Shown here piece by piece: positions 7,980-57,166 of a stretch of DNA of 64,000 bases. Every line of letters starts with the position of its first letter. Within the stretch, counting starts at the first letter, position 1. Source of the DNA: Hyphococcus sp. Lineage in GTDB: Bacteria > Pseudomonadota > Alphaproteobacteria > Caulobacterales > Parvularculaceae. The notes beneath the pieces were generated by a model, which did no database searches, was not told where the DNA came from, and saw only the letters and a program-made list of their open reading frames with translations. The stretch is from assembly GCA_028289605.1 (NCBI GenBank), contig JANQON010000009.1, positions 682,001 through 746,000 of the forward strand, written 5' to 3'. The position numbers and the translations under genes were made by a program.

Positions 7980-9263
7980 TTAGTCGTCCGCCGGCGTGGT
8001 CCGCACCGATAGCGCGCGTGCGATGACCCTCTCCTCGTCTATTTCCATGCCCAGGCCCGGCCCTTCCGGCACGCGGATTTCGCCGTCGCCATAGTCGAGA
8101 TAGTTTTTCACCGTACCGATCAGATCCGGAAACCGGTCGACATCCGGAAACTCGAAGAACGGTCCCACGGTCGGCATCGCCGCGACAAGATGCAGCGACG
8201 CCGCCGTTGAAATGGTCGGCCGGGTGTTGTGAAGAATCATCGGCTTCTGTCGCGCCTGGGCGAGCGCGGCGATTTTGTCCATCACCGTGATGCCGCCCGC
8301 CTTGATGACGTCGGGGTTAAGGTAATCGGGGTTGGCGTAACGGATCAGCTCATCGAGCTGCCACAGGGTATACTCTTTTTCACCCGACAGGATCCCGAGG
8401 TCGAGAGCGGCGACAACCTCTGCTGTTTCCGTATGGTTTTGATCCGAACACGGTTCTTCAAAAAAGCGATGGCCGTACTCGTCTTGCAAGATGCGGCCAA
8501 TCTGAATTGCGCGAGCAGCAGTGTATCCGTTGTTGATGTCGACAAAAAGCTCTGCGTCATCGCCGATTTCCTTTTCGATCGCGTCAACATATTCAATCGT
8601 TCGGTCATTCACCGGATTGAGATGATCTTCACGGATCTGCATTCGGCATTTGACCGTGCGGAATCCGTTGCGAACAAATTTCACAGCCTGAGCGACCGCC
8701 TCGGACTTCGAGAGATTTTCCCAACGCCCGGTGCCGTAGCTGCCGTAAACCGGCATGGCGTCGCGATATTTGCCGCCGAGCAGCCGGTAAATCGGAACAT
8801 CCAGGATTTTGCCTTTAAGATCCCACAACGCGATATCGATTCCGGCAATCGAATTGGATAGCGCGCCGCCCGGTCCAAAATCGTGGGAGCGATAAAACAT
8901 CTCATCGAAAATCGGCTCGTTATCGAAAGGATCGCGGCCGAGGACCCGGCGCGCATGTTCTGAGTGAATAAAGGCTTCCATGACCTCATGGCTGCCTGCG
9001 TCGCACTCGCCCCATCCTTCATGGCCGGAATCCGTTGTCACTTTCACAAAGATCGCGTCATCCATGATAAAGGTGCGGATTTCCGAGACGGCGATATCGG
9101 AGGCGCCTGGCGTGTCGGGCGCCCGAGATCCGCCCGCCTGCGTTCCGGCGGCGGCTTCGCCGCCGTTTCCGCATGCGACAAGCGACAGCCCGCTCGCGAG
9201 CGTCAAGGTCGACACAGCCGAGGATTGCAGAAAAGCTCTGCGGTCACAGGTCTTCTTCACCAT
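7980..9263 (-). CDS. Enolase-superfamily (mandelate racemase/muconate lactonizing) protein with Tat/lipoprotein signal
   Basis: N-term DRRAFLQSSAVSTLTLASGLSLVAC (Tat motif, lipobox); LFVDINNGYT, FFEEPC, SGEKE, PDVIKAGG, ILHNTRP active-site segments. Confidence 0.85.
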   Translation of the reverse strand: MVKKTCDRRAFLQSSAVSTLTLASGLSLVACGNGGEAAAGTQAGGSRAPDTPGASDIAVSEIRTFIMDDAIFVKVTTDSGHEGWGECDAGSHEVMEAFIHSEHARRVLGRDPFDNEPIFDEMFYRSHDFGPGGALSNSIAGIDIALWDLKGKILDVPIYRLLGGKYRDAMPVYGSYGTGRWENLSKSEAVAQAVKFVRNGFRTVKCRMQIREDHLNPVNDRTIEYVDAIEKEIGDDAELFVDINNGYTAARAIQIGRILQDEYGHRFFEEPCSDQNHTETAEVVAALDLGILSGEKEYTLWQLDELIRYANPDYLNPDVIKAGGITVMDKIAALAQARQKPMILHNTRPTISTAASLHLVAAMPTVGPFFEFPDVDRFPDLIGTVKNYLDYGDGEIRVPEGPGLGMEIDEERVIARALSVRTTPADD

Positions 9264-26860: not shown

Positions 26861-27709
26861 ATGAAGCTACTGAGATGGGGACCGCCGGGCGCTGAGAAGC
26901 CCGGCGCGCTGGATGCAAGCGGCGCAATCCGAGACATTTCCGCCTTTGTCGATGATATCGCCGGCGATGTCCTGTCTGACCGGGGGCTCGACGAACTACG
27001 CGGAATCGACCTGAACGCGCTCCCCGTTGCGCCTCCCGGGACACGCATCGGCCCTTGCATTGGCGTCGTCGGCGAATTCATCGGCATCGGCCTCAACTAC
27101 GCCGACCACGCAAGGGAGCTTGGCGCGCCAGCGCCCGCCGAACCGATTGTGTTTTCGAAAGCGGCGAGTTCCATATGCGGACCAAACGACGATCTCATCG
27201 TCCCCCGCCGCTCGGAAAAAACTGACTGGGAAGCTGAACTCGGCGTCGTTATCGGCGCCAGAGCGCAATATGTTGCACAAGACGACGCCCTCTCCTACGT
27301 CGCCGGTTACTGCGTTGTTCATGATGTATCGGAGCGCGGCTTTCAACTGGACCGCGGCGGTCAATGGATAAAGGGCAAAAGCGCGCCGACTTTCGGACCG
27401 ATTGGTCCCGTGCTCGTCACGCGGGACGAAGTCCCGGAGCCGCAGAACCTGAACGTTTGGCTGGAAGTGGACGGCAAGCGCTATCAAGACGGCAGCACAA
27501 AAGACATGTTCTTTTCCGTCGCTGACATCGTCTCCTATCTGTCTCAGTTCATGGTGCTGCAGCCCGGCGACATAATAGCAACGGGAACGCCCGCCGGCGT
27601 CGGCGCGGGCCAGAAACCGGACCCTGTCTTCCTCCGACCGGGACAGATTGTGAAGCTTGGCGTTGAAGGTCTTGGCGAACAAAGACAGCGGGTTGTCGCC
27701 GCCGGCTAG
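26861..27709 (+). CDS. Fumarylacetoacetate hydrolase (FAH) family protein
   Basis: GIGLNYADHARELG, PIVFSKAASSICGPND, EAELGVVIG, GDIIATGTPAGVGAG. Confidence 0.88.
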   Translation: MKLLRWGPPGAEKPGALDASGAIRDISAFVDDIAGDVLSDRGLDELRGIDLNALPVAPPGTRIGPCIGVVGEFIGIGLNYADHARELGAPAPAEPIVFSKAASSICGPNDDLIVPRRSEKTDWEAELGVVIGARAQYVAQDDALSYVAGYCVVHDVSERGFQLDRGGQWIKGKSAPTFGPIGPVLVTRDEVPEPQNLNVWLEVDGKRYQDGSTKDMFFSVADIVSYLSQFMVLQPGDIIATGTPAGVGAGQKPDPVFLRPGQIVKLGVEGLGEQRQRVVAAG

Positions 27710-28959
27710 TTTTCGACCGTTCTCAGTACTTTCGCATCATATTGAACGCCGAATCCCGAGCCTTCGGGCAGCGCTATCACACCGTTCACTGGCTTGATGA
27801 TCGGTTCATAGTCGAAATCGGTTTCGTTCTGGTCGGCGCGGTATTCCATGAAGCCCTCAAAATTGTCGATTGAGGCGACGAAATGCATCAGCGGCGCGGT
27901 TTCCGGGCCGCTCCGCGGATAATGGGGCGCGATGCGGCGTCCGAAAGTCTTCGCGATATTTGCGACCATCATGGTGCGGATAAAGCCGCCGTTATACATA
28001 ATGTCCGGTTGCAAGATGTCTACGCCGCCATGCTCCGCCATCCAGCGCCACTTTGGCAGCGAGGTGTCCTGCTCGCCCCCGGCCACAGGCATCTCGAGCG
28101 CATCCGCAACCTGCTTTGTCATTTCGAAGTCTTCCCACTCGCAAGGCTCTTCATAGAATGCGACGCCGTTGTCTTCGAGCATGCGGCCAACCCGTATCGC
28201 CGTGGGCGCGTCGTAAGAGCCGTTGGCGTCAACATAGATAACCATATCGTCGCCAAGCCGCTTTCGTATTCCGGACACCAGCGCTTCGGTGCGCCCAGGC
28301 GATGCATCCGCGTTAATGCGCATGCGCCCGCCAATCTTCACTTTAACGGCCTTCGCGCCGGCTTCGACGACGTATCGCTCTGCAATGTCGATTTCTTCTT
28401 CGGCGCTCGTATCCCGGGAAAGCCGAGACATATAAACGGCCACTTCGCCAAGTTTCGGCTCGCCAGCAAGCGCCGCAACGCTTTTTCCAAGCATGTGTCC
28501 GAACATGTCCATGATCGCAAGCTCGATATGCCCCTGAATGATGAAATAGGGCATGCTCGAGTACTTATAGCCGCGAGGGTAGTTGACGCGGAAAAGCAGA
28601 TCAAAAATGCGCTGTATGTCGCGGGCGTCCTTGCCGAGCAGGACAGGACGAAAGAGCGTATCGAGCAGGCTGTATGTGTGCCATAGTCTTTTGTTTGCAA
28701 TGATGACGCCCTGCGCGCCGTCCTTGGAGCGCACCCGAACAAACTTTGTTTTGTCGGAGTGATCAAGCACGTCGACCGCGTCAATAACAACCGGATGATC
28801 GACGAGCGCGCGAAAGTCGATCAACGGCGCAAATTCATCCGACGCATAGGCGAGCGCTCCGTCCTTGTTGCGCTCGGCGACAAACTGCGCAGCCGCGCCA
28901 TGGGGAAGCGCCGTTGCAGCGAGGCCGGCGGCGAAACGCCTCCGTGAAAGGGCTGCCAA
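27706..28959 (-). CDS. Tat-exported enolase-superfamily sugar-acid dehydratase/racemase-like protein
   Basis: N-term SRRRFAAGLAATALPHGAAA; KAVKVKIGG (KxK), VIYVDANGSYD, FYEEPCEW, GGEQDTS, QPDIMYNGG, PHYPR. Confidence 0.87.
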   Translation of the reverse strand: MAALSRRRFAAGLAATALPHGAAAQFVAERNKDGALAYASDEFAPLIDFRALVDHPVVIDAVDVLDHSDKTKFVRVRSKDGAQGVIIANKRLWHTYSLLDTLFRPVLLGKDARDIQRIFDLLFRVNYPRGYKYSSMPYFIIQGHIELAIMDMFGHMLGKSVAALAGEPKLGEVAVYMSRLSRDTSAEEEIDIAERYVVEAGAKAVKVKIGGRMRINADASPGRTEALVSGIRKRLGDDMVIYVDANGSYDAPTAIRVGRMLEDNGVAFYEEPCEWEDFEMTKQVADALEMPVAGGEQDTSLPKWRWMAEHGGVDILQPDIMYNGGFIRTMMVANIAKTFGRRIAPHYPRSGPETAPLMHFVASIDNFEGFMEYRADQNETDFDYEPIIKPVNGVIALPEGSGFGVQYDAKVLRTVEN

Positions 28960-41155: not shown

Positions 41156-42451
41156 TCACCAATTCCACATTGTGCCGTCTTCGAGGCGGGCGATGGGAAG
41201 CTGTTTCGGATCGTAAGGATGCTTCGCCGCTTCCTTTTCATCAATGTCGACGCCAAGACCCGGCGTGTCGCCGATGACAAGCGCGCCGTCATTGAACGCA
41301 TAATCGGTGGAGAACACGGCGTCGGTTTCAGGCGTATGGCGCATATATTCTTGAATGCCGAAATTCGGCGCCCAACTATCGAAGTGGAGGGCTGCAGACA
41401 TCGTCACCGGCGAGAGATCAGTGGCGCCGTGGCAGCCGGTGCGCACCTGCCAGACGCTGGCGAAATCCGCGATGCGCTTCAGATGTGTAATCCCGCCGGC
41501 CCCGAGAACCGTCGCGCGAATAAAGTCGATGAGCTGGTGCTGGATAAGGTCCTTGCAATCCCAAATAGAATTGAAGATCTCGCCGACGGCGATGGGCGTC
41601 GTCGTATGTTCCCGAATTAGGCGAAATGCGTCCTGATTTTCCGCGGGAGTAGGATCCTCCATCCAGAAAAGCGAATATGGCTCCAGCGCCCTGCCGAGAC
41701 GTCCGGCCTCAATCGGCGTAAGACGATGATGAACATCGTGCAAGAGATGCACGTCGAACCCGAATTTTGCTCGCAGGGCTTCGAACAGCTTTGGCGCGTA
41801 TTGAAGATAGGGCGCCGTCGCCCACAACGTTTCCCTTGGCAAAGCGGCGTCAGCAGGCTCGTAATACATCTTGTCGCGACCGACGCCGTAAGCGCCGCGC
41901 ACGCCGGGAACGCCAGTCTGCGCACGCACCGCTTTGTAGCCAAGGTCGATATAGCGCGCGACTTCATCCGTCGTCTGCTCAATATCCCCGCCGTTCGCGT
42001 GGCCGTAAACCATTACGCTGTCTCGGCTGCGGCCGCCGAGCAGATCGACGACCGGCGCGCCCAGCATTTTTCCCTTTATGTCCCAAAGAGCCATATCCAC
42101 CGCGGCGACAGCGCGCATGGTCACCGGACCCCGGCGCCAATAGGCGCCGCGATACAGAAACTGCCAGATATCCTCAATTCGCCGTGCGTCCTTTCCGATC
42201 AGATTCGGAATGACATGGTTTTCAAGATAGGCGACCGGCGCAAGTTCCCGCCCATTGAGCGTAGCGTCTCCCAGACCATATATGCCGTCCGCGGTTGTGA
42301 TTTTCAGCGTGACGAAATTCCTGCCGGGACAGGCGACAATCACCTTCGCGTCAACAATCGTTGCCGCATCTGCGGCGTTGTCCGAAAGCGGACGATTTTC
42401 GTTTTTTGACAGTCCCGAATCCGGCATTTCGCCCTCGTTAGAAAAGACCAT
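41156..42451 (-). CDS. manD: D-mannonate dehydratase, ManD type (enolase superfamily)
   Basis: [114 protein letters not shown]. Confidence 0.88.
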
Positions 42452-42516
42452 GTCGTGACGCGGCAAGGCGGAAACGGTTGACGAAAGCCGCTGAGTCTGG
42501 GACACATAACCTATCT

Positions 42517-43358: not shown

Positions 43359-44771
43359 ATGGCGAAACTCGAACTTGACCCAGACCGGCTTTTTTCCCCG
43401 AATGAGGCGGAGCGCGCCGTTGCCAAGCGCCTTTATGCAGAAGTGCGCGACCTGCCAATCGTCAGTCCCCACGGTCACACGGATCCGCGTTGGTTCGCCG
43501 ACAATGAGCCGTTCGATAACCCCGCCGATCTCCTCATTATTCCTGATCATTACATCTTTCGCATGCTCTATTCGCAAGGCGTGCGGATGGAAGATTTGGG
43601 AGTGCCGACACAGGACGGCGCCGCAGTTGAAACAGATCCACGCAAAATTTGGCGACATTTCGCGGAGCACTATCATCTTTTTCGCGGCACACCCTCGCGG
43701 ATGTGGCTCGACTGGGTATTCTCGTCCGTCTTCGAACTAACTGATAGTCTCGAGGCTGGCACCGCTGATGCTTACTATGACCGCATCGACGCATGGCTTA
43801 AAGAGGACGCCTTTCGGCCTCGCGCGCTTTTCGACCGATTTGACATAGAAGTCATCGCCACCACGGAAAGCCCGCTCGACGACCTTCGCCACCACAAAAA
43901 AATTCGCGAGAGCGAATGGCTGGGCAATGTGATTACCGCCTACCGACCGGATCCGGTTGTCGATCCGGACTTTGAGGGCTTTGCTGAAAACGTAGCCGCT
44001 TTGGGTGCGCTGACCGGCGAGAACGCGACCGACTGGCGGGGCTATCTCAACGCCCATCGCAAGCGCCGGGCCTTTTTCAAGACTATGGGGGCCACGTCCA
44101 CCGACCACGGTCATCCTACGGCCGCAACCGCTAATCTCTCTGAAGCCGACGCAACAGCCCTTTTCGAAAAAGCGTTGGCGGGGCGCATCACACCGGAAGA
44201 AGCGGAAACATTCCGTGGACAAATGTTGCTTGAGATGGCGCGAATGAGTCTCGAGGACGGGCTCGTCATGCAAATTCACCCCGGCGCGTGGCGTAATCAC
44301 AATAAGCCCCTTTTTGAGCGCTTCGGCCGAGATAAGGGCGCCGATATCCCAAGGCAGACAGATTACGTCGCAGCGCTGAAACCCCTTCTCGACGCAGTCG
44401 GCAATGAACGCGATCTCACGGTCATACTCTTCACGCTGGACGAAACAAGCTATTCGCGTGAGCTTGCGCCGCTGGCGGGGCACTATCCCGCGCTTCGGCT
44501 CGGGCCGCCGTGGTGGTTCCATGACAGCCCCGAAGGAATGCGCCGCTTTCGAGAACAAGCAACGGAAACCGCGGGCTTTTACAATACCGTCGGCTTTAAC
44601 GACGATACGCGCGCGTTCATGTCGATCCCGGCGCGCCACGATGTTGCGCGACGCATGGACTGTAATTTCCTGGCGCGGCTAGTCGCCGATCACCGTCTCC
44701 CTGAAGACGAAGCAAAAGAGGTTGCTGTCGATCTTGCCTACAATCTCGTCAAAAAAGCCTACAAGCTCTAG
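43359..44771 (+). CDS. uxaC: Glucuronate isomerase
   Basis: LPIVSPHGHTDPRWFADNEPFDNPADLLIIPDHYIFRMLYSQGV, MQIHPGAWRNHN, LAPLAGHYPALRLGPPWWFHDSPEGMRRFRE. Confidence 0.95.
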   Translation: MAKLELDPDRLFSPNEAERAVAKRLYAEVRDLPIVSPHGHTDPRWFADNEPFDNPADLLIIPDHYIFRMLYSQGVRMEDLGVPTQDGAAVETDPRKIWRHFAEHYHLFRGTPSRMWLDWVFSSVFELTDSLEAGTADAYYDRIDAWLKEDAFRPRALFDRFDIEVIATTESPLDDLRHHKKIRESEWLGNVITAYRPDPVVDPDFEGFAENVAALGALTGENATDWRGYLNAHRKRRAFFKTMGATSTDHGHPTAATANLSEADATALFEKALAGRITPEEAETFRGQMLLEMARMSLEDGLVMQIHPGAWRNHNKPLFERFGRDKGADIPRQTDYVAALKPLLDAVGNERDLTVILFTLDETSYSRELAPLAGHYPALRLGPPWWFHDSPEGMRRFREQATETAGFYNTVGFNDDTRAFMSIPARHDVARRMDCNFLARLVADHRLPEDEAKEVAVDLAYNLVKKAYKL

Positions 44772-44773
44772 TC

Positions 44774-45271
44774 ATGGGCGCCGCACTCGCCGCGATATCC
44801 CGCATGGTGAGCCTCATTGCGCTCTGGTTTTCCGGCGCCGGACTCATCGTCATGACGGGGATCATTTTTTGGCAGGTCGTGTCGCGCTATGGCTTCAATG
44901 CGAGCCCGGCCTGGGCAGAGCAGTCGGCGCTGATCTTGATGATCTGGTTTGTGTTTTTCGCCGGCGCCGCGGGCGTTCGCGAAGGGTTTCACATCCGAAT
45001 CGTCGCCGGCGTTAATGCGCTGCCTGTTGGCGTCGGCCGACCAGTTCGTGTTTTTTCAGATCTTGTGATTGCCGCTTTCGGTCTCGCGCTGGCGATCTGG
45101 GGCGGTGACTTGGTCCTGCGGACTTGGGATCACACGGTGCCCGCGCTCGGCATATCTCGGGGCCTCGCCTACTCCCCCGCCCCGATCAGCGGCGCGCTGA
45201 TCTTTTTCTTCGCGCTCGAGCAGGCCTGGGCTTCAGCGGCCGGGCGAAAGGTCGATCCGCAATGGAGCTAG
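44774..45271 (+). CDS. TRAP transporter small permease (DctQ family)
   Basis: Small 4-TM protein, WQVVSRYGFNASPAWAEQSALILMIWFVFFAGAAGVREGFHI; overlaps DctM. Confidence 0.9.
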   Translation: MGAALAAISRMVSLIALWFSGAGLIVMTGIIFWQVVSRYGFNASPAWAEQSALILMIWFVFFAGAAGVREGFHIRIVAGVNALPVGVGRPVRVFSDLVIAAFGLALAIWGGDLVLRTWDHTVPALGISRGLAYSPAPISGALIFFFALEQAWASAAGRKVDPQWS

Positions 45272-46539
45272 CGCTTCTTATCGGCCTTCTCGCCCTTTTT
45301 CTGGTTATCGGCGTGCCGGTGGCGTTCGCGCTCGGCGCGGCCTCGCTTGTCACTTTTATGGTCTTGGATATCCCGCCGGTCGTCGCCGTACAGCGCATGA
45401 CTTCCGGCGTTAGCGTTTTTACGCTGATGGCGATCCCCTTTTTCATTTTCGCTGGCGATCTCATGTATCGGTCGGGCATTGCCGAACGTCTGGTGCGGGT
45501 CGCCGACGCCGCCTTCGGGCGCGCCCGCGGCGGACTTGGCCAGGTTGATGTAGGCGCATCCATGATGTTCGGCGCCGTCTCCGGCTCCGCTGTCGCCAGC
45601 GCGTCGGCGGTTGGCTCTACGCTTGCGCCAATGATGCTCGAAAAGGGTTATGACCGGGATTACATCGTCAATGTCACCGCCACCGCGGCGATCACCGGCC
45701 TCCTGATTCCGCCGTCCCACAATATGATTATCTATGTCGCCGCCGCCGGCGAAGGCGTTTCGGTGGGCGAGCTGTTTCTCGCGGGCGTCATCCCCGGCCT
45801 GCTCACCGGCGCGCTCTTAATGATCGCCGCCTGGGGCGTCGCTGCCAAGCGCGGCTATCCGAGGGGCGTTTTTCCCGGCTGGGCGAAGTTCGCCCGCGCG
45901 GTCGCGCTAGCGTTGCCCGGTCTCATGACGGCAGTCATTATCGTTGTCGGCATTCTATCCGGCGTTTTCACGCCGACAGAGTCATCGGCGGTCGCCGTCG
46001 TCTACACGGTTCTGATTGCATTCTTTGTGTACAGATCATTAGGGGCGGACGGCTTTGTCAAAGCGGTTTCGGGCGCGGTGAAGACGACCTCAATGGTGAT
46101 GCTGATCATCGGTTCCGCCGCTGCTTTCGGCTGGCTGTTGGCGCTGTTGGAAGGCCCCACTCAACTCGCCGATGCGCTGCTAGCCATCACCGATAATCCG
46201 ATCCTGCTCTTTTTGCTCATTAACTTGATGCTGCTCTTGCTCGGCACTTTTATGGATATGGCGCCGTTGATCATCATCACGACACCCATCTTCCTGCCTA
46301 TTGCGACATCGCTGGGCATGGATCCAACGCAGTTTGGCATCGTCATGATGCTTAACTTGGGGATCGGCCTGGTGACCCCGCCCGTCGGATCGGTTCTTTT
46401 CGTCGGCTGCGCTGTAGGCGGCCTGCGGATCGAAGAAACGGTGAAAACAATCTGGCCGTTCTATCTCGCTCTCGTCGCCGCGTTGATGGCGATCACATTT
46501 GTCCCCGCCCTGTCGCTCACCTTGCCTGGATTGTTTTGA
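45262..46539 (+). CDS. TRAP transporter large permease (DctM family)
   Basis: IPFFIFAGDLMYRSGIAERLVRVADAAFGRARGGLGQVDVGASMMFGAVSGSAVASASAVGSTLAPMM, GLLIPPSHNMIIY. Start ATG 45262 (ORF track 45124 is upstream). Confidence 0.94.
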   Translation: MELALLIGLLALFLVIGVPVAFALGAASLVTFMVLDIPPVVAVQRMTSGVSVFTLMAIPFFIFAGDLMYRSGIAERLVRVADAAFGRARGGLGQVDVGASMMFGAVSGSAVASASAVGSTLAPMMLEKGYDRDYIVNVTATAAITGLLIPPSHNMIIYVAAAGEGVSVGELFLAGVIPGLLTGALLMIAAWGVAAKRGYPRGVFPGWAKFARAVALALPGLMTAVIIVVGILSGVFTPTESSAVAVVYTVLIAFFVYRSLGADGFVKAVSGAVKTTSMVMLIIGSAAAFGWLLALLEGPTQLADALLAITDNPILLFLLINLMLLLLGTFMDMAPLIIITTPIFLPIATSLGMDPTQFGIVMMLNLGIGLVTPPVGSVLFVGCAVGGLRIEETVKTIWPFYLALVAALMAITFVPALSLTLPGLF

Positions 46540-46540
46540 T

Positions 46541-47833
46541 ATGAAAGTCCTCTTTACCCTTGCTGCAGTCCTTTTCGCTGTCCCCGCAGCAGCAGCGGAG
46601 ACATCGCGCGAGAAAAAAATCGAAGAAGCAATGCGACGCGGCGCCGATTACGCGGCCGACATCCTGATTACACAGTCGGGTGCTGGACGTACGGAGTATG
46701 AACTCTTGCGCGGCGAATGGAACGACTATGAGACCCATTGGCATACGGCGCAAACCATCTACGGTCTTTTAGAGACTTGGCGTGTCACTGGAGAGCGACG
46801 GTATCTTCGCGCAGCGCGCCGCGGCGGCGACTGGTGGATATCAACGGAGTTCAAAGAACCGCACCCCTTCGCCGGCCTCGTAAATGCAGCCCATGGCGAT
46901 CGTCTCGGTCATCTTATCAACATGACGACCATGACGGATGGTTCGAATGGAATCTTCGCGCTCACGCGCGCGACGAATGATGACAAATACGCACAGAGCG
47001 CCGTACGGTCCGGCGATTGGTTTCTTGAGAACGCATACATTCCCGAGGAAGGCCTCTTCTACAATATTGCGGATCCAGAAACCGCGACGGTTTGGAAGGA
47101 CAAGAGCCCGCATCATCCGGAGATTGGGCCTGCAGAGATTAAGGTCACTGAAGTCGCGCGCCCTAATTCGGAAGGCTACGCCTATGCGGATATGTGCGCG
47201 TTTACCGGCGACCGACAGTATTGCGCCGTCTTTCTCGATGTCGCCGATAAAAAGCTCAAACGCCAGTCCGAGGAAGGCGCATGGATGGATTTCGAACCGA
47301 ACCGGATGTCCGACGGGCGCGTACATCCGCGGTTCAATATCTGGCTCGCAGAAGCGCAGCTTGAAGCCTATGAAATGACGGGCGACCGGAAATACCTGGA
47401 GAGCGCGCTGCAAACCGGTCGGTTAATGGCGAAACTGCAGAAAGCGGACGGCGCCTTTTACCGTCACCTCTATCGTGACGGAACATCAAGCCCCGGCTCT
47501 TTTATCGGTTCCGCATCGGCGTTTTCAGGCATCCTATGGCTAAGGCTGCGCGACTACGGAGTCGGCGACGAGTTTGACGACAATATTGAACGCTCCGTTG
47601 ACTGGTTGTTGAAGAACCAGGCGCTGGAGAGCCATCCAGACGAAAATGTTCGCGGGTCGTTTCTCAATCTTTATGTACGTCGAAAAGACGGTCAGGCGCT
47701 TTTGTATCAACGCGACATCGGCACTGGTTTCGCTCTGCGATTTCTCGCGACCTATTTACGCGACCGGGCGGGGGAAGACGTGAACGTTGATTCTTTCAGC
47801 GGACGCGACGCCTATCCAGACATGAGCGAATGA
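46541..47833 (+). CDS. Exported protein, probable (alpha/alpha)6-barrel glycoside hydrolase/epimerase, family unassigned
   Basis: Signal MKVLFTLAAVLFAVPAAAAE; repeated helical hairpins with YLRAARRGGDWWI, YAQSAVRSGDWFLENAYIPEEGLFYNI, YLESALQTGRLMAKLQ spacing typical of six-hairpin enzymes. Confidence 0.6.
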   Translation: MKVLFTLAAVLFAVPAAAAETSREKKIEEAMRRGADYAADILITQSGAGRTEYELLRGEWNDYETHWHTAQTIYGLLETWRVTGERRYLRAARRGGDWWISTEFKEPHPFAGLVNAAHGDRLGHLINMTTMTDGSNGIFALTRATNDDKYAQSAVRSGDWFLENAYIPEEGLFYNIADPETATVWKDKSPHHPEIGPAEIKVTEVARPNSEGYAYADMCAFTGDRQYCAVFLDVADKKLKRQSEEGAWMDFEPNRMSDGRVHPRFNIWLAEAQLEAYEMTGDRKYLESALQTGRLMAKLQKADGAFYRHLYRDGTSSPGSFIGSASAFSGILWLRLRDYGVGDEFDDNIERSVDWLLKNQALESHPDENVRGSFLNLYVRRKDGQALLYQRDIGTGFALRFLATYLRDRAGEDVNVDSFSGRDAYPDMSE

Positions 47834-47868
47834 CCTGGCGCGACTCCGACATAAACGCAAAAAGGGAC

Positions 47869-49407
47869 ATGCAGATTGCGATCGCCATCGTTGCCCTGGC
47901 GACTATTTCCTGCACCCCGAATACGCAGGCCGCGCAACCCGATGAAAACCCGCAGCCGCCGAACATTTTGATTGCGATCGCCGACGATCAGTCGTTCCCG
48001 CACGCTTCCGCCTATGGATCGAACTTTGTTTCAACACCCGCGTTCGACCGCGTCGCGCGCGACGGGGCGCTCTTTACCCGAGCCTACGCCGCCTCTCCGG
48101 GATGCAGCCCAAGCCGAGCGGCGCTGCTTACCGGCCGCCATACCTGGATGTTGGAGGCGGCGGGCACCCATGCAAGCGGCTTTCCTGCGAAATTTCAGAC
48201 CATACCGGACGTATTGGCTGCGGCCGGCTATCAGGTCGGTTACACGGGCAAAGGATGGGCGCCCGGCGACTGGGAATCGACGCGCGCGCATAATCCGGCC
48301 GGCCCCGCCTACAACGCTATTCGTTTTGAAGAGGCGCCCGCCGGCGTTTCCTCTATCGACTATGCCGCAAACTTTGCCGCCTTTCTGAAACAACGCCCGG
48401 ACGCCGCTCCGTTTTACTTCTGGTTCGGCGCATTGGAGCCGCACCGGCCCTACGACGACGGCGCCGGTCGCCGGGCGGAGAAGTCCATCTCAGATGATGA
48501 AATCCCGGGCTATCTGCCGACAACCGAAAAGGTCAAGAGCGACCTCCTAGACTACGCCGTCGAGATCGAGTGGTTCGACGCGCAGCTTGGCGAAATGCTC
48601 GATCAACTTGAGGCCGCAGGGGAACTCGACAACACGTTGATCATTGTCACCGCCGATAACGGTATGCCGTTTCCGCGGGCGAAAGCGAATGTCTATGACG
48701 CGGGGATCCACGTACCGCTTGCCGTGAGCTGGCCGGCGCAGGCGGCGGACGGCGGCGTCATCAATGATCTCGTCGGTTTCGTCGACATAACGGCAACGGT
48801 GTTCGACGCCGCCGGCGTAAAAGCCGACGGCCTGTCAGGGCGAAGCTTTCTTAGCCGTTTGCGCGGGCAAGGCGCGCCGGACGCCGACAAAGCCGTATAT
48901 GCCGCCCGCGAACGCCACTCGTCAGCGCGTTGGAACAATCTCGGTTATCCGCAACGCGCGATCCGCGTCGGCGACTATCTTTACATCCGCAACTTTGCTC
49001 CGGAACGTTGGCCCGCCGGGGCCCCGCGAAAATATGGAGATGGCGGCGCACTGGGCCCGCCTCATCGCGCCTATCACGACATCGATAGGGCGCCCGCTTT
49101 AATCGCCATGATCGACGCCAGATCAGCGCCCGGAACCGCGCCGCTGTTTAACGCCGCCGTCGGCGCTCGACCTGCCGAAGAACTCTATAACGCCGAGGCC
49201 GATCCGGCGAATCTGAAGAACCTCGCCGCCGATCCAGCCTATTTGGAGATCCGTGAAACTCTTTCAGCGCGACTGGAGTCTACACTTCAAAAAACCGGCG
49301 ACCCGCGGATCGGCGGGAAAGGCGCCGTTTGGGACGCGTATCCTCGTCTGAAGGGGGCCATGCGGACATTCCCTCAACCCGAATGGGCGAAGGGGGCTCC
49401 GGAATGA
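47869..49407 (+). CDS. Cys-type sulfatase (S1 family), lipoprotein-type signal
   Basis: MQIAIAIVALATISCTPN; NILIAIADDQSFPHASAYG, FGly motif GCSPSRAALLTGR (CSPSR codons at 48103-48117), VGYTGKGW, LIIVTADNGMPFPRAK. Confidence 0.92.
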   Translation: MQIAIAIVALATISCTPNTQAAQPDENPQPPNILIAIADDQSFPHASAYGSNFVSTPAFDRVARDGALFTRAYAASPGCSPSRAALLTGRHTWMLEAAGTHASGFPAKFQTIPDVLAAAGYQVGYTGKGWAPGDWESTRAHNPAGPAYNAIRFEEAPAGVSSIDYAANFAAFLKQRPDAAPFYFWFGALEPHRPYDDGAGRRAEKSISDDEIPGYLPTTEKVKSDLLDYAVEIEWFDAQLGEMLDQLEAAGELDNTLIIVTADNGMPFPRAKANVYDAGIHVPLAVSWPAQAADGGVINDLVGFVDITATVFDAAGVKADGLSGRSFLSRLRGQGAPDADKAVYAARERHSSARWNNLGYPQRAIRVGDYLYIRNFAPERWPAGAPRKYGDGGALGPPHRAYHDIDRAPALIAMIDARSAPGTAPLFNAAVGARPAEELYNAEADPANLKNLAADPAYLEIRETLSARLESTLQKTGDPRIGGKGAVWDAYPRLKGAMRTFPQPEWAKGAPE

Positions 49408-50273
49408 AGCGGTTTTTGATCATGTGCGCCATTCTTGCGCCTGTCTTGTTCGCTTGCGGCGGCAAGGACGACGGCCCTTCAACAAAAGGCGCAACCCCGC
49501 CATGCACGCCCACGCGCGGCGCCGTCGCCGTCGTTTTTCGAGACTCGACCGGAGAAACCCGCCGACTTTCAGTCGACCGCACCGAAGTCACCAATGCGGA
49601 ATTCGGCCGATTTGTTGACGAAACGGGCTACGTTACGCGAGCCGAGCGCGGCCTGCCGGAAGATACGTTCTCCTACCTGCCCGAAGAAGCGCGGCGGCCT
49701 GGATCCGCGGTCTTTACGCCGCCCGAAAAGCCCGGACCGATGGTCCTTTCACGCTGGTGGACTTTCGTTGAGGGCGCCAACTGGCGCCGTCCGGAAGGAC
49801 CACACAGTTCGATAAGCGGTCTTGATCATCATCCGGTTGTTCATATCGCTTATGAAGACGCCGTTGCTTACGCCGGTTGGGCTGGACGCCGCCTGCCATC
49901 GGCGGTGGAGTGGGAGGCGGCGGCCGCCCCCGGAGCGCCGCCATTTCATCCGGATTCGGATGACGCCAATATCTGGACCGGATTTTTTCCGATTAGCAAC
50001 ACGCGCGAAGATGGATACGCGCAGACAGCACCCGCTGGCTGTTATCCGCCCAATGAAAATGGGCTCTATGACGTCGTCGGTAATGTCTGGGAGTGGACGT
50101 CGACGCCTGGCGTCGGAGAGCCTACGGCCATGATCCTCAAAGGCGGCTCTTATGTCTGCGCCAGAAACTTTTGCGCGCGTTATCGCACCGACGCCGAGCA
50201 AGCGCAGGATCCCACTCTTGGCGCGTCTCATATCGGCTTTCGAACGGTCGCCGATATTGAAACGAAAGGATAA
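49404..50273 (+). CDS. Formylglycine-generating enzyme (SUMF1) family lipoprotein
   Basis: MKRFLIMCAILAPVLFACGG; VDRTEVTNAEFGRFVDETGYVT, RRLPSAVEWEAAA, LYDVVGNVWEWTSTP, GGSYVCARNFCARYRT. Confidence 0.9.
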   Translation: MKRFLIMCAILAPVLFACGGKDDGPSTKGATPPCTPTRGAVAVVFRDSTGETRRLSVDRTEVTNAEFGRFVDETGYVTRAERGLPEDTFSYLPEEARRPGSAVFTPPEKPGPMVLSRWWTFVEGANWRRPEGPHSSISGLDHHPVVHIAYEDAVAYAGWAGRRLPSAVEWEAAAAPGAPPFHPDSDDANIWTGFFPISNTREDGYAQTAPAGCYPPNENGLYDVVGNVWEWTSTPGVGEPTAMILKGGSYVCARNFCARYRTDAEQAQDPTLGASHIGFRTVADIETKG

Positions 50274-50277
50274 CGCT

Positions 50278-51561
50278 ATGCGCGAGGCGAGCCCGAACCG
50301 ACGCGGTCTCTTAACCGCCGCCGTCCTGGCGCCGATTGTCGCTGCCGCTGGCGCTCCGGCAGCACATGCAACTGAAAAAACGCCTGAAGGTACGAGAGCG
50401 CTACGCAAAGACCTTGAACAGGCGCGCCTTTCGCCCGTGTTGAAGCGAGCGCTCTTTCCTGACCCTGTGATCATAGAGACTCTAGAGCTCCTGCATGACG
50501 GTGCGGTCTATTACATCCGCGTGCGATCGAGAGACGGCGCTGAGGGCTTTGCCATGACGAACCGCCGCCTTGCCCCCCTCGCAAAGCCAATCATGTTAAA
50601 GCGTTCGCTGCCCTATATGAAAGGCAAAGACGCGCGCGATCTCGACGCCCTTGTCGACGGCGTCTTTGCGCGTGGACTAAACTACAAACACCAGGGAATC
50701 ACCTTTTGGACGGCCGTGTCCTGGGTGGAATTCGCTATCCTTGACATGCTTGGAAACATTGCCGGCCTGCCCGTCGGCGCGTTGATCGGCGACCGCACGC
50801 TCAACCGCACGCATATCTACTACGCCAGCGGCAATCGCGGCAACGCACCGGAAGCAGAAGTCGCCCTGCTCCAAAGCCTTATCGCAAAGTCCGGCGCAAA
50901 AGCGGTGAAGTTCAAACTCGGAGACCGGCTTGACTATAGTGACGCGTCAAACGCGCGCGACGAAGCGCTTATACCGATGGCGCGCCACGCGCTTGGCGAT
51001 AAAACCGCCTTGTTTGTTGACGCGAATAGTTCGTTTGACGTATCGCGCGCGATCGAAACCGGGCGCATGCTCAGCGCGCATGGCTACGATTTTTTCGAGG
51101 AACCTGTGCGTTTCGACGATTTTGACGGCACCAAAGCGGTTGCCGACGCTGTCGATTTGCCCATCGCGGGCGGCGAACAAGAAACGAGCCATTTTCGGTA
51201 TCGCTGGTTGATCGAAAACGACGCCGTACAAATCGTACAGCCGGATGTCCTGTTGGGCGGCGGTTATGTTCGCGCAACCCGCATTGCGCGCATGGCGGCG
51301 GTCGCGGGCAAACCGATCGTCCCACACATTTCTGGCTGGGGGCTAGGCTTCCTCCATATTCTCCACTTTGCATCAGCAACGCCGAATATCGGTCCGTATC
51401 AGGAGTTTAAAGGGGACAAAGACGGGATCCCTTACGAGGTCATAGGGTCTGGCGCGCCCTTGCAGGTCGCGAACGGCGCCGTCGACATACCAACCGGCCC
51501 CGGGCTCGGTATCCGATTCGACCCGGATTACGTGAGGGCATTGAAGCAGGTTGAAGTTTAG
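50278..51561 (+). CDS. Tat-exported enolase-superfamily protein (paralogue of 27706..28959)
   Basis: NRRGLLTAAVLAPIVAAAGAPAAHA; KAVKFKLGD, ALFVDANSSFD, FFEEPVRF, GGEQETS, QPDVLLGGG, PHISGWG. Confidence 0.86.
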   Translation: MREASPNRRGLLTAAVLAPIVAAAGAPAAHATEKTPEGTRALRKDLEQARLSPVLKRALFPDPVIIETLELLHDGAVYYIRVRSRDGAEGFAMTNRRLAPLAKPIMLKRSLPYMKGKDARDLDALVDGVFARGLNYKHQGITFWTAVSWVEFAILDMLGNIAGLPVGALIGDRTLNRTHIYYASGNRGNAPEAEVALLQSLIAKSGAKAVKFKLGDRLDYSDASNARDEALIPMARHALGDKTALFVDANSSFDVSRAIETGRMLSAHGYDFFEEPVRFDDFDGTKAVADAVDLPIAGGEQETSHFRYRWLIENDAVQIVQPDVLLGGGYVRATRIARMAAVAGKPIVPHISGWGLGFLHILHFASATPNIGPYQEFKGDKDGIPYEVIGSGAPLQVANGAVDIPTGPGLGIRFDPDYVRALKQVEV

Positions 51562-51611
51562 AGGCGCCAGCATTCGCGCTCGCCCGAGCGCTGCCAATTA
51601 GGGAGACGACA

Positions 51612-52514
51612 TTGTCCGAGTATTATTGTCATGCCGTACATGGGGATGATTGCGCCGCGCTCATACAGGCGTCTCCGTTGATCAGCGAGAACACAAAGCG
51701 TGTAGCGCGGGAATATGGAATGCTGATGCGCATGGGGTCCGTCTTGCGCGCAGGCGGTACGCTTGTTTCGCCGGCGCTAACAGCAATTCGCAACAGCGGC
51801 GCCGGCGTCAATCCGCGCATCGCCGACCGCAGGCTGGCGATCGCCTTCTCACAGCTTTCTCACCGCGCAGCGGACGGGTATTTTAAACCAGTCTATCGTG
51901 AATTGACCCCGGAATACTACGAGAACGATTTCGCAGCCACGCCCAGCGACATCCGAATCATGCATGACATTGCAGTCTATCATGCGCGTAAAAACATGAA
52001 ACTTGCCGACGGCGATCCAAAGTACGACGCACTGATATTTCAACATATCGTTCCGTTGAGCGACGACCAATCTCCCGCCGATGCGCGGTTTCTGGAAACA
52101 GTCTTCGGTGGGCGCGTCATTCAGGAGTTGTTGGGTCTACATGATCTCTTTCCCAAAAACGCAGACACCATTCAAAAGCTCAAAGCGTACATAATGGCGC
52201 TGGATCCCATTTACATTGACACGGTGCGCTACGCCGACATGGCGGCGCAGCCCTTCATCAATCATGTTCAGCGTTACATCATCGAGCCAAACTTTTACGA
52301 TCCCGACGATCCGTTTATCTCGCTCGCCGTAGACATCCAGAATGGATCGACGCCGGATCGCGCACGACTAGCCGCCGCCAAGGCGGCTGATCCGCAAGGC
52401 CTGTCGCAATGGGGCGCGACGCTGGCGCTGGGTGTGCGTTATTACGAGGCCGCGCAAGCCTATATGGATGGCGACATCGACCTCGGCGCGTTTGAGGAGA
52501 TTGCACTGTCATGA
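51612..52514 (+). CDS. Protein of unknown function (300 aa)
   Basis: Probable TTG start after AGGGAG; coupled between enolase-like gene and the next ORF; no family recognised. Confidence 0.65.
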   Translation: MSEYYCHAVHGDDCAALIQASPLISENTKRVAREYGMLMRMGSVLRAGGTLVSPALTAIRNSGAGVNPRIADRRLAIAFSQLSHRAADGYFKPVYRELTPEYYENDFAATPSDIRIMHDIAVYHARKNMKLADGDPKYDALIFQHIVPLSDDQSPADARFLETVFGGRVIQELLGLHDLFPKNADTIQKLKAYIMALDPIYIDTVRYADMAAQPFINHVQRYIIEPNFYDPDDPFISLAVDIQNGSTPDRARLAAAKAADPQGLSQWGATLALGVRYYEAAQAYMDGDIDLGAFEEIALS

Positions 52515-53521
52515 GGAATACGCCAATTGCAAAACCCGCCAGCGCCTTTTTTCAACGGCGCGAATTCCTCGCGCTTTTGACGGCAAGCGCTTTGGCGCCA
52601 AACTTTTCTTTTGCGACGCAGACGATCGTAAGGGGCGCTGATGCGCCGTCGCTCGCCAGAGCCGCCGTCATTCATGACGCGTTGCTTCTCCTTATCAGCG
52701 ACGATGACGTCACAGGCGAATGGCGCGACATGCTTGCGCCCTTGCCAAGCGGCAAAGCGTGGGAATTTTCCTATGCTTACGGCGCTGCCAGTCTCGGCCA
52801 CGATTCCCAATTAGCGTTGGATGTTGTCGCCGACGTCCAACAAGGCTGGTCCACTCGCAAACCGGCGTTTCTCGATCTGCAACGATACAAAGGCGGAATG
52901 ATGGAGCGAAGCCTGCACGTTGCCCTTGGCTGGGCGGCGAATCGGGCCGCTGAGTCGATTCTGTTTGCCGATACGGCGGATCTGACGGACTCTGCCTTGA
53001 TCGTCGACGGCGTATTTCTCCGGGCCATATCGGGCATGACCCGCGTTCGGAAAGCCCACGCGAAGCGTATTTTCCGCATTCTCTACGAACGCGCCTTTAT
53101 CATGATGCATACGCTGGAACCCGATCTTGACGGTCCGGGCGGGCTCGATATCGCCGCGATGCATGAAGTGAAGAATCCCGATCAGCAACACATCAATAGG
53201 TTCATCGATGCGTATGCTGACTGGGTGGAGAGTATCGACGGCGAATGCGACAGGCTCGCGGAAGCCATGGCCGCCGCCCCGCCCCGACGCTTTCCGTCAG
53301 GCGCGAAATTCTATGATCGGAACGATCCAATAATCCGAACCGTCGACATGATACGCCAGGGTCTTGGCAACGCCCAAAAACCTGGCCGTTGGTTCAACCA
53401 AGTTGGGGAAAGTCGATACGCAATGGCGGTTTCAAGAGCATATCGCGGCGCCCGCTTTGTGCTTGAAGCGGCGCGGGGCGACCGCCCGGCGTCGGACGTC
53501 AATTTCATCGTTGCAGATTAG
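52511..53521 (+). CDS. Exported protein of unknown function with Tat-type signal (336 aa)
   Basis: FFQRREFLALLTASALAPNFSFA; 4-bp overlap with upstream ORF; mostly helical sequence. Confidence 0.65.
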   Translation: MRNTPIAKPASAFFQRREFLALLTASALAPNFSFATQTIVRGADAPSLARAAVIHDALLLLISDDDVTGEWRDMLAPLPSGKAWEFSYAYGAASLGHDSQLALDVVADVQQGWSTRKPAFLDLQRYKGGMMERSLHVALGWAANRAAESILFADTADLTDSALIVDGVFLRAISGMTRVRKAHAKRIFRILYERAFIMMHTLEPDLDGPGGLDIAAMHEVKNPDQQHINRFIDAYADWVESIDGECDRLAEAMAAAPPRRFPSGAKFYDRNDPIIRTVDMIRQGLGNAQKPGRWFNQVGESRYAMAVSRAYRGARFVLEAARGDRPASDVNFIVAD

Positions 53522-53577: not shown

Positions 53578-55830
53578 CTATCGTTGCAACGCGAACGCTC
53601 TCGCGGCAAGATCGAAGCGAACTGATCCGAAATCGCCAAGCTGCAGCGATAGTGTTCCTGCTTGCGCATCTTGTTGAATGACCTTGACCGGCGCCGCGGC
53701 AGGGGCCGCGCCCTTCTCTGTCGTGATGATCCAGGCGAAGATGACGTTGCCGGCAACGTTGGTTTCATACACCGCCAAGGGCGCGGCGATTTGCTGATTA
53801 TAGAACGGACTGTACCAGCCCCGGAACGGGTCCTCTTGACCTTTCACAAGTTCCGCCTGCGCGTCATTGAGACCGATGAGTTGCAAACGAATATTGGCGA
53901 CGCCCTCATCCGCGCTTGACACGTCGAGGCCGTCCATCGACGCGCCGACCTCTGGGTGAAAGTGCCAGTGACTGGTCAATGAGCGCGGGCGGTCGGTTTC
54001 CATCCAGTCGACAACTACCCAGCCAAAATCGTTGATGTAGGCGACCGAACGATGATGGAGTGCTTCGCCTTCAAGACTTTCATAGCCATTGTCGAAGGCG
54101 CCGAAGCCTACGGTGTACGTGTCCGTGATCATGGCGTGCGACGGATCCATCGGCTCGGCGAACTCGAGCGCGTCGGGGTTTTGCTGCTTGCCGTCGACCA
54201 AGATCAGGTTCGCGCCGCGCGTAGACCGGACGTAATTCGTCATCGGCACGTCTTTGTAGATATAACGCCCGGTATCGACAATGAGGTCGCGCCCGCCGCT
54301 CGCCATGGCGAATTGCAGAATGTCATTATGCTGGTGGGAAATGCCCCAGGGACCGAACTCAAAGATGCTCCAGTCGGCGTCCGCGTCCCAACCGGATCGT
54401 GCGAAGAGCTGCCCCGACCAGGGCCAGAAACGAGACGGTCCGGTCGCCGGTTCAATACCCTCACCGCCGTTGGTGGCGATGTAGCGCCATTCGTCATTGT
54501 CGAAGAGGTCGGCAAGACGCATCACGATTGGGCGCACAAAGTCTCTATCGGCATTATTATTGAGAGGGATGGCGCCGTCAGGCCGCATCGACCAAGCCAT
54601 GAACTCACCCATGCTTTCGATCCGGTCTTCGAACGCTGCCGGCGGCTGATAACCTGAAGCGCGCATGAACTCGACATATTGTTTAAAGTAATCAAGAACA
54701 GTGCGGTGGTAGTGCGATGAGAGTTCTTTCTGGACCCCGTCGGGATAGATTTGGAAGTCCAATTCTTCGACGAGGACAGTGAGAGCGTACTCACGCCAGA
54801 CGGCGGCGTCTTTAAACTCCGGCCAGGCGGCGGCGGCATGGGAAAGGCCAATCATCTCCTTGATCGCATGGTTGTGTTTGCGACGGTGGTATTTCTTCGT
54901 ATGGATTGCTTGATCATAGACAGCCGACAGCATCATCAGCCGCGCCGCATCGGAGAAAGCCGTTTCATCCTGAAGGTAGTAAAAAACTTGCGGCCATGAT
55001 TGCAACAATCGCGTCGCCGTCGACATCGGTCTCCAAACGCCGGGAAACTCTTTATCATTCTCCGCATCCGGAGGGATCGGGTTAGACGTTACGAAATCGA
55101 GGATTGCGGCGTCGATGTAGGCCGCGAGCGCCGGATCACCGGTAACTTCATACTGCTTTAAAAGCGGCAGAAAGTGGAAGTGGCGATTGAGAAAAACCTC
55201 CCACTGAAAGTCACCTTTGGGGCCGCGATCCAACCAGTCGATGCGGCCGTTTGGGAGGCGCCTTACTTCGGCCTTCACCGACTGAAAGGTGTAAATATCT
55301 GCGAGGGTTTCTTGCGCAAGGGGACCGAAATCGTCGTAGCCGCCTGGATCGTGCACGCCGGTTCGGCCCTTTAGCCACGAACCGTTGTCGGTGGTTCGGT
55401 AGTAGGCTGCTATCGCCTCCATGGCCGCAGGCGCATCGCCGACGTCAGCAGCCGCCTTAGCACGCTCAAAGCCTGGGTGATCGAGGTTTAAGCGTTCAAG
55501 GAGACGTTTTGCTTTGTCCGGAAAAGCATCGGCAAACTCGCGCGCCGTGACAATGTCCGGCGTGGGGCTGAGCTCGCGAGGGTCGGGGCCATAATCAGTG
55601 TAGCTAAAAACGTCACGGGACACGCCGTATGGGCGCTCGTCGGGACGTAAACCTTCGAGCGATGCACGGATCTTGGCAATGCGATCCGTAGAGACGTCCA
55701 GCGTGTCTACGTGGGCTTGCGATGTTGCAGCGGCCTCGTCAGGGTCGCCGCTGCTTTCCGGTTCCTCACTGCCGCACGCGCCAACAAGAAAGAGGAGAGC
55801 CGCAACCCGGACCGGCGAAACCATATGCAT
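53578..55830 (-). CDS. Heparinase II/III-like polysaccharide lyase, lipoprotein
   Basis: MHMVSPVRVAALLFLVGACGSEE lipobox; helical toroid then FGPWGISHQHNDILQFAMASGGRDLIVDTGRYIY and WHFHPEV. Start moved from 56214, whose extension overlaps the CapA gene. Confidence 0.85.
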   Translation of the reverse strand: MHMVSPVRVAALLFLVGACGSEEPESSGDPDEAAATSQAHVDTLDVSTDRIAKIRASLEGLRPDERPYGVSRDVFSYTDYGPDPRELSPTPDIVTAREFADAFPDKAKRLLERLNLDHPGFERAKAAADVGDAPAAMEAIAAYYRTTDNGSWLKGRTGVHDPGGYDDFGPLAQETLADIYTFQSVKAEVRRLPNGRIDWLDRGPKGDFQWEVFLNRHFHFLPLLKQYEVTGDPALAAYIDAAILDFVTSNPIPPDAENDKEFPGVWRPMSTATRLLQSWPQVFYYLQDETAFSDAARLMMLSAVYDQAIHTKKYHRRKHNHAIKEMIGLSHAAAAWPEFKDAAVWREYALTVLVEELDFQIYPDGVQKELSSHYHRTVLDYFKQYVEFMRASGYQPPAAFEDRIESMGEFMAWSMRPDGAIPLNNNADRDFVRPIVMRLADLFDNDEWRYIATNGGEGIEPATGPSRFWPWSGQLFARSGWDADADWSIFEFGPWGISHQHNDILQFAMASGGRDLIVDTGRYIYKDVPMTNYVRSTRGANLILVDGKQQNPDALEFAEPMDPSHAMITDTYTVGFGAFDNGYESLEGEALHHRSVAYINDFGWVVVDWMETDRPRSLTSHWHFHPEVGASMDGLDVSSADEGVANIRLQLIGLNDAQAELVKGQEDPFRGWYSPFYNQQIAAPLAVYETNVAGNVIFAWIITTEKGAAPAAAPVKVIQQDAQAGTLSLQLGDFGSVRFDLAARAFALQR

Positions 55831-55882
55831 CAATGCCTCCATCAATTCCCGGCCGCACACAGCGCCGCGGCAGCAGCGTCGG

Positions 55883-57166
55883 TCACGGTGCGCTGCCGAC
55901 GCCATCGATAACGACGTAATCGTCGGCCCAGGAAAACGGGTTGCCGGCATCGGCGGCGCGGGCGCGCAGGTGCATGTCATACATGACGTAACGTCCCACC
56001 GGACTGCCGGGCTTGTAGATTCGGAGTTGGTCATCGCCCCAAACGTCTCGCCAGATCGGTGCGAATTCCGCTCCCGTGACGCCGTTCTTGTTCGCTTTGA
56101 TACGGACAAGAATGCCTTCAGGATAACGCTGAGATCTATTTCCGCTGACGGGCCGCCAATTGCGGCGGTCGTCGAACAGGCCTTGTCCAGAATCATAAAT
56201 GATTGGTTTGCCATTATAGATCTCCACCGGCTTCATACGATGGGAGCCATGGCCAAACACGACATCCGCGCCTGCATCGATGCAGAGCCGAGCGATATCA
56301 TCTTCATACCCGACAATTTCATTGGCGTCCGACAGTCCCCAATGGAACGATACGATTTGAAGGTCTGTCTTTTTTGCGAGCGCTTTGATATCGGCGCGAA
56401 GCGCTTCGCCGGACGGCGGATGGATATTGAGGACATTGTCAAGCGGCCGCCCTGGTTTGCGCGCCAAATTTGACACTTTAAACGCGGTGTCCACGCGAAT
56501 AGGCGCGACGCCGGGACTGTCTTCGCCAGCGACGTGATCATGCAAGTCATACAGCGCTGTATACTGAAGGATTCCCACGCGAACACCATCGCGCTTTAAT
56601 ATGACCGGTTTACGCGCAGCGGCCATATCCTTGCCGCCGCCGGTTGTTGCAATCCCAGCCTTGTCAAGCACACTCAGGCTGCGCAGCAGGGCCGCCGGGG
56701 GCGCGGAGACGTTGTTCGCGACGCCAACCGCGTCGAAGCCGGCGGCAACCAACCCCTCGACCTGGTCGGGATTGGAATGGCGCCAATCCTTATTGCGAAT
56801 GTCGCTTTTGCGCGGATCGTCGGTTCCCCCGGCAAAAGGCCCTTCAAGATTGGCGAAGGCGACATCTGCAGCCTTCAGGGTCGGGATCAATGCGCCAAAA
56901 GCCGCGCCCGGATTGTCACGATAAGAGATGTTGGTGTCGCCGAGCAGGAGAATATCGATCTCACCCTCAGCCTTTTCAGACCATTGCCAGGCCTTTCCTG
57001 CTTCGCCCACTCCCTGCAAAACATATTGGGAAGACGGTTCGCCAGTCGGTTCCATGCTGTCTGTGTTTTCGGGCCAGAAAAATGGCGCCTCCTGCTGCGC
57101 GTCCGCGGGAAACGCCATCAAGGAAAATGCCGCGATTACCGCTGCCGACGCATTCCGCCTCAGCAT
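55883..57166 (-). CDS. CapA/PGA_cap-type metallophosphatase-like exported protein
   Basis: Signal MLRRNASAAVIAAFSLMAFPADAQ; GDTNISY, VAFANLEGPF, VSFHWG, ADVVFGHGSHRMKPVEIYNGKPIIYDSGQ. Confidence 0.8.
   Translation of the reverse strand: MLRRNASAAVIAAFSLMAFPADAQQEAPFFWPENTDSMEPTGEPSSQYVLQGVGEAGKAWQWSEKAEGEIDILLLGDTNISYRDNPGAAFGALIPTLKAADVAFANLEGPFAGGTDDPRKSDIRNKDWRHSNPDQVEGLVAAGFDAVGVANNVSAPPAALLRSLSVLDKAGIATTGGGKDMAAARKPVILKRDGVRVGILQYTALYDLHDHVAGEDSPGVAPIRVDTAFKVSNLARKPGRPLDNVLNIHPPSGEALRADIKALAKKTDLQIVSFHWGLSDANEIVGYEDDIARLCIDAGADVVFGHGSHRMKPVEIYNGKPIIYDSGQGLFDDRRNWRPVSGNRSQRYPEGILVRIKANKNGVTGAEFAPIWRDVWGDDQLRIYKPGSPVGRYVMYDMHLRARAADAGNPFSWADDYVVIDGVGSAP

Follow-up and report, generated by a model that had tools for sequence, protein, structure and literature searches.

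The window, that is the whole stretch of 64,000 nucleotides from Hyphococcus sp. that was analysed, carries a run of ten genes on the + strand that code, in order, for GntR, UxaC, DctQ, DctM, a GH88-like hydrolase, a sulfatase, a protein with a formylglycine-generating-enzyme (FGE) domain, an enolase-superfamily protein and the two proteins under study, ORF1 and ORF2. The gene order agrees with an earlier note on this DNA, which had placed two ORFs of 300 aa and 336 aa, the latter with a Tat signal, at the end of a ten-gene uronate run behind an enolase with a Tat leader; both ORFs and their 4-bp overlap are present as it had described them. The features of the run are the following.

43359..46539, + strand: uronate isomerase UxaC (NF002794) and the TRAP permeases DctQ/DctM
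46535..47833, + strand: GH88-like hydrolase (PF07470, E=1.7e-9)
47830..49407, + strand: Cys-type sulfatase (PF00884; SGSH_C), 31% identical to the sulfatase of the same type in the locus of the metagenome-assembled genome (MAG) discussed below
49404..50273, + strand: FGE-domain protein (PF03781, E=8e-52) with a lipoprotein-like leader
50278..51561, + strand: MR-type enolase-superfamily protein (PF13378) with a Tat-like leader, NRRGLL
51597..51611, + strand: Shine-Dalgarno-like AGGGAG ahead of the TTG of ORF1; GGGAGG lies at about the same distance in the MAG locus (L002)
51612..52514, + strand: ORF1, 300 aa, TTG start, predicted to be all-helical, no signal peptide seen, no family match
52511..52514, + strand: ATGA, the 4 bp by which the stop of ORF1 overlaps the start of ORF2, kept in the orthologous pair
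52511..53521, + strand: ORF2, 336 aa, predicted to be helical, N-terminal Tat-type signal QRREFLALL, no family match

With the ATG at 50278 taken as the start of the enolase gene, the intergenic distances from GntR to ORF2 are, in order, 8, 2, -4, -5, 38, -4, ~4, 50 and -4 bp. The widest of them, 50 bp, lies just before ORF1, and no terminator-like site was found in it; cotranscription of the entire run from GntR to ORF2 is likely.

A pattern scan of ~85,000 species, which used one genome per species and exact peptide patterns suited to no more than close relatives, found one relative of the pair, in the Woeseiaceae MAG IP29b_bin.156. This MAG is from a set obtained from coral skeleton, in which IP29b denotes one colony of Isopora palifera (PMC9868349). 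The orthologue of ORF1 (L002:2731-3633) is 69-70% identical over the full length, with no gaps, and that of ORF2 (L002:3630-4631) is 54-56% identical, in the same gene order and with the same ATGA overlap as in the window. The TTG of ORF1 is replaced by ATG in the orthologue and both proteins begin at MSEY, which confirms the start. In both ORFs, the substitutions pile up at third codon positions (mismatches at positions 1/2/3 of 70/58/162 in ORF1 and 101/80/174 in ORF2), with dN of 0.23 and 0.42, respectively, a saturated dS of >2 and, subject to this saturation, dN/dS of ~0.11 and ~0.17. The mismatch pattern and these ratios mark ORF1 and ORF2 as real genes under purifying selection and not chance ORFs, and both their coding sequences and their overlapping arrangement have been kept in two proteobacterial classes. 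ORF2 opens with a twin-arginine motif followed by a hydrophobic stretch (QRREFLALLTASALAP) and its orthologue also bears a Tat motif, NRRETLALL (NRRETLALLIAGIAAP), whereas sequence and hydropathy reveal no signal in ORF1. The GC content of the pair (0.56-0.58, with GC3 of 0.63) agrees with that of the surroundings, so the pair did not arrive recently as DNA of foreign composition. The repeats on either side of the pair in the window are short matches of low identity, each in two copies.

The pair is rare. Apart from the window's own genome and the MAG, searches of 288 genomes of the window's class, 298 genomes of its order (including 20 listed genomes of its own genus), 395 further genomes of the MAG's order, plasmids (tblastn) and viral contigs (scan) detected no copy. 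A profile of ORF2 likewise found no copy in 106 other genomes of the MAG's family and, in 398 genomes across the phylum, gave only matches to short patches with E-values of 0.02-0.8 per genome, which were dismissed as noise. By these searches, the pair is a new and very rare protein family, of which more diverged, distant members may escape an exact-pattern scan.

Scans to E=10 of both proteins and their orthologues gave no significant match in Pfam, NCBIfam, PHROGs or PADLOC, a match to DUF6641 (E=0.2-0.26, covering 46 residues) being below the cut-off, and the two profiles had 0 matches at E<=10 among PDB chain sequences. The earlier note had recognised no family in either protein, and no strong match to a well-characterised family emerged from any of these collections. 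AlphaFold models built from two-row alignments, comprising the window protein and its orthologue, are unreliable (mean pLDDT of 44 for ORF1 and 36 for ORF2), and the predicted, mostly helical content of both proteins is their sole usable output. Foldseek with these models reached best E-values of 0.6 and 1.1 and a TMq of at most 0.2; its matches to GPCRs, pore-forming proteins and ABC transporters were discarded as meaningless in view of the poor models. Moreover, the His/Asp pattern of ORF1 was compared by eye with the motifs of HD-domain/MIOX-like proteins, PLC/P1-nucleases and vanadium peroxidases, none of which was convincing, and the pair contains no recognised catalytic motif. Towards their C-termini, ORF1 and ORF2 share a short motif at corresponding positions (FYDPDDPFI and FYDRNDPII), around which they display weak similarity at FYDxxDP (BLAST E=0.04, hhalign E=0.046); the score of their profile alignment is reached by 7-26 of 1000 column shuffles, while the reversed control stays at background. 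This similarity is suggestive of distant paralogy and compatible with a paralogous heterodimer.

The MAG contig carries GlcDEF, a PhoD-like phosphatase, two sulfatases, a GFO/IDH oxidoreductase, a Lyase_1 protein, a MOFRL-type kinase and malate synthase G, and continues with a pair of Mo-oxidoreductase genes that is found near the MAG copy only and not near the window copy, followed by ORF2-ORF1, an opposite-strand WD40 gene and an enolase with a Tat leader. The weight that the earlier note gave to the uronate context is supported, as the sole orthologous pair found, with its overlap conserved, also belongs to a sulfatase/enolase/sugar-acid locus and is not unlinked from such genes. An all-against-all BLAST of this contig with the 118 kb around the window identified further genes in common, namely the PhoD-like gene (66% identity), WD40 (58%), a sulfatase (55%), GlcD (53%), GlcF (42%), the MOFRL kinase (42%), GlcE (33%) and an SGSH-type sulfatase (31%), with the enolases of the two loci at 27-33%. 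In the window's genome, the PhoD-like, WD40 and sulfatase genes form a contiguous block (G000:C17:676529-681860), 55-66% identical to the genes around the MAG pair, that stops ~140 bp short of the window's first position, ~52 kb from the pair. Among 150 genomes of the window's order, the window's own is the only one with the PhoD-like gene, and it is also the sole carrier of the pair found in that order; in the MAG's family, 7 of 107 genomes have the gene. Since the two catabolic loci have these phylogenetically patchy genes in common, the comparison argues for horizontal exchange of parts of the locus, the pair included, in one direction or the other.

The genome G406, a Woeseiaceae relative of the MAG, contains a locus (L035, G406:C6:44743-52950) in which the section running from the sulfatases through the Mo-oxidoreductase is collinear with that of the MAG, at up to 87% identity, and which then carries GlcDEF, WD40 (87%), GH28 (58% to the window's) and an enolase (90%). 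GlcDEF of G406 occupies, between Mo-oxidoreductase and WD40, the same position as ORF1-ORF2 in the MAG (L015, G289:C12), which has GlcDEF beside the PhoD-like gene instead; on this comparison of the two loci, the position is a variable slot. Near the point at which G406 carries different genes, the MAG locus has an inverted repeat (L002:4630-4692 / 4831-4893; 63 nt, 76% complementary) that begins at the stop codon of ORF2 and may be an insertion boundary. In the window's order, the G853 locus codes for relatives of the window's GH88-like protein (48%), GH2 (46%), GH28 (49%), MOFRL kinase (39%) and enolase (53%, the closest relative of the window enolase in the order). These two polyuronate loci, with sulfatase, GH28 and enolase, have the same surrounding catabolic genes as the pair loci but contain no ORF1-ORF2 pair. 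Both enolase lineages thus occur without the pair, which behaves like an insertion that polyuronate loci can do without, and its very patchy distribution, together with the related and syntenic loci that lack it, argues for transfer of the module. The window and G853, and likewise G289 and G406, offer natural with/without comparisons for the contribution of the pair.

The pair could be tentatively explained, with a somewhat less than even chance of being right, as a two-gene cassette for an all-helical heteromer that is Tat-exported by ORF2, with ORF1 as a hitchhiker, and serves one variable step in polyuronide use. Specifically, the cassette would have passed intact between marine Alpha- and Gammaproteobacteria and into their polyuronate/sulfatase loci, ORF1 and ORF2 would form one heteromeric complex, and the signal-less ORF1 would fold with ORF2 in the cytoplasm and leave as a hitchhiker on its Tat signal. 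The periplasmic complex would then serve one substrate-dependent, dispensable step in the processing of (sulfated) polyuronides or sugar acids, and its active or binding site would more likely lie in ORF1, which is better conserved and His-rich. The orthologous pair in another class, with the same order and overlap, speaks for a cassette, and the Tat motif of both ORF2 proteins, absent from ORF1, speaks for export led by ORF2; conversely, two loci only are known, the folds are of low confidence, the gap before ORF1 is the widest of the run, no catalytic motif was recognised and ORF1 could stay cytoplasmic, which counts against co-export.

The proposed export follows the logic of the FAD glucose dehydrogenase of Burkholderia cepacia (BcGDH), in whose alpha/gamma arrangement a helical hitchhiker gamma subunit bears the Tat signal and its partner is signal-less, in a sugar-oxidising periplasmic system (PMC6719666). 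However, no sequence relation between BcGDH and the pair was detected, ORF1 does not belong to the FAD/GMC proteins, the gamma subunit consists of five helices as opposed to the ~330 aa of ORF2, and neither ORF1 nor ORF2 has a Pfam match that would assign it to the Tat hitchhiker gamma family of GMC dehydrogenases. Similarly, E. coli PaoABC, a periplasmic aldehyde oxidoreductase and ternary Tat hitchhiker, has signal-less subunits that leave with the signal-bearing one (PMC4273604); this enzyme is a multi-subunit aldehyde oxidoreductase, whereas ORF1 and ORF2 lack a cofactor-domain match.

Alternatively, the pair may be independent cargo of transferred islands with no functional tie to uronate use. 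This reading, rather unlikely, would agree with the mere two occurrences, with the related and syntenic loci that do without the pair and with the position of the MAG copy between Mo-oxidoreductase and WD40, outside any uronate operon, but it leaves aside that both carriers hold the pair in catabolic loci with several further genes in common and that the window copy ends a same-strand run, behind a 50-bp gap free of terminator-like sites.

The Tat proofreading chaperones TorD, DmsD and NarJ are helical, signal-less and encoded beside their Tat substrate. A predicted helical, signal-less ORF1, encoded ahead of a Tat substrate and coupled to it in translation, recalls this arrangement, in which case ORF1 would be a cytoplasmic chaperone or proofreader for ORF2 and ORF2 alone would act in the periplasm. 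Such a role is unlikely, as ORF1 is longer than chaperones of this type, is matched by none of the chaperone models of Pfam or NCBIfam even at E<=10, and is conserved better than its putative substrate (70% versus 54%), which is unusual for a chaperone. Equally improbable is that the pair constitutes a new carbohydrate-active enzyme, the other suggestion of the earlier note, here an all-helical lyase or hydrolase that acts directly on the polyuronide: the loci abound in GH28, GH2, GH88-like, heparinase and sulfatase genes, ORF2 has a Tat signal and the predicted helical content is compatible with toroid-type enzymes, but neither a CAZyme-like Pfam match nor a catalytic motif was found, two separate chains would be unusual and the syntenic loci manage without the pair. 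Lastly, the proposal that the pair serves the adjoining exported enolase, as an accessory complex (the idea of the earlier note) or in its maturation, prompted by an MR enolase with a Tat leader near the pair in both loci, is very improbable and largely refuted by the pair-less loci with relatives of either enolase (53% in G853, and 90% to the MAG enolase in G406), by the non-orthology of the two pair-linked enolases (31% in a two-sequence alignment, 27% by BLAST) and by the opposite-strand WD40 gene that separates enolase and pair in the MAG. The window enolase (50278..51561) is thus judged a neighbour and not an obligate partner; what stands of the earlier interpretation is that the two orphan genes are inherited together and lie in polyuronate loci.

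Marine polyuronide degradation represents a large carbon flux, and many genes of the loci involved have no assigned role. Should the pair prove to be a genuine enzyme or binding complex outside the cytoplasm, as in the preferred reading of a Tat-exported heteromer, it would add a new protein family to this process. It is improbable, albeit conceivable, that the pair is the founding member of a new Tat-exported, two-chain, all-helical enzyme family that has spread horizontally among marine bacteria and catalyses an undescribed step on sulfated uronides, for example as a lyase, as an isomerase or by oxidative cleavage. On present evidence, the pair is a family without assigned function in a familiar kind of locus and, from its distribution and surroundings, has the look of a two-protein module that is rare and can be exchanged, of interest to specialists in marine polysaccharide loci.

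Other genes of the window have features of their own. The FGE-domain protein (49404-50273) has the leader LFACGG, which is lipoprotein-like, and contains GGSYVCARNFCARYR, which resembles the active-site Cys pair of FGE; it adjoins a sulfatase with CSPSR and is possibly an extracytoplasmic formylglycine-generating enzyme. The window harbours four different MR-type enolase-superfamily genes (7980-9263, 27706-28959, 41156-42505 and 50278-51561), several of them with Tat-like leaders, and exported sugar-acid dehydratases would be unusual. On the minus strand, the ORF list has overlapping ORFs for heparinase II/III and PGA_cap (53578-56214 and 55883-57166), and the start of the heparinase is most likely the lipoprotein leader near 55.8 kb.
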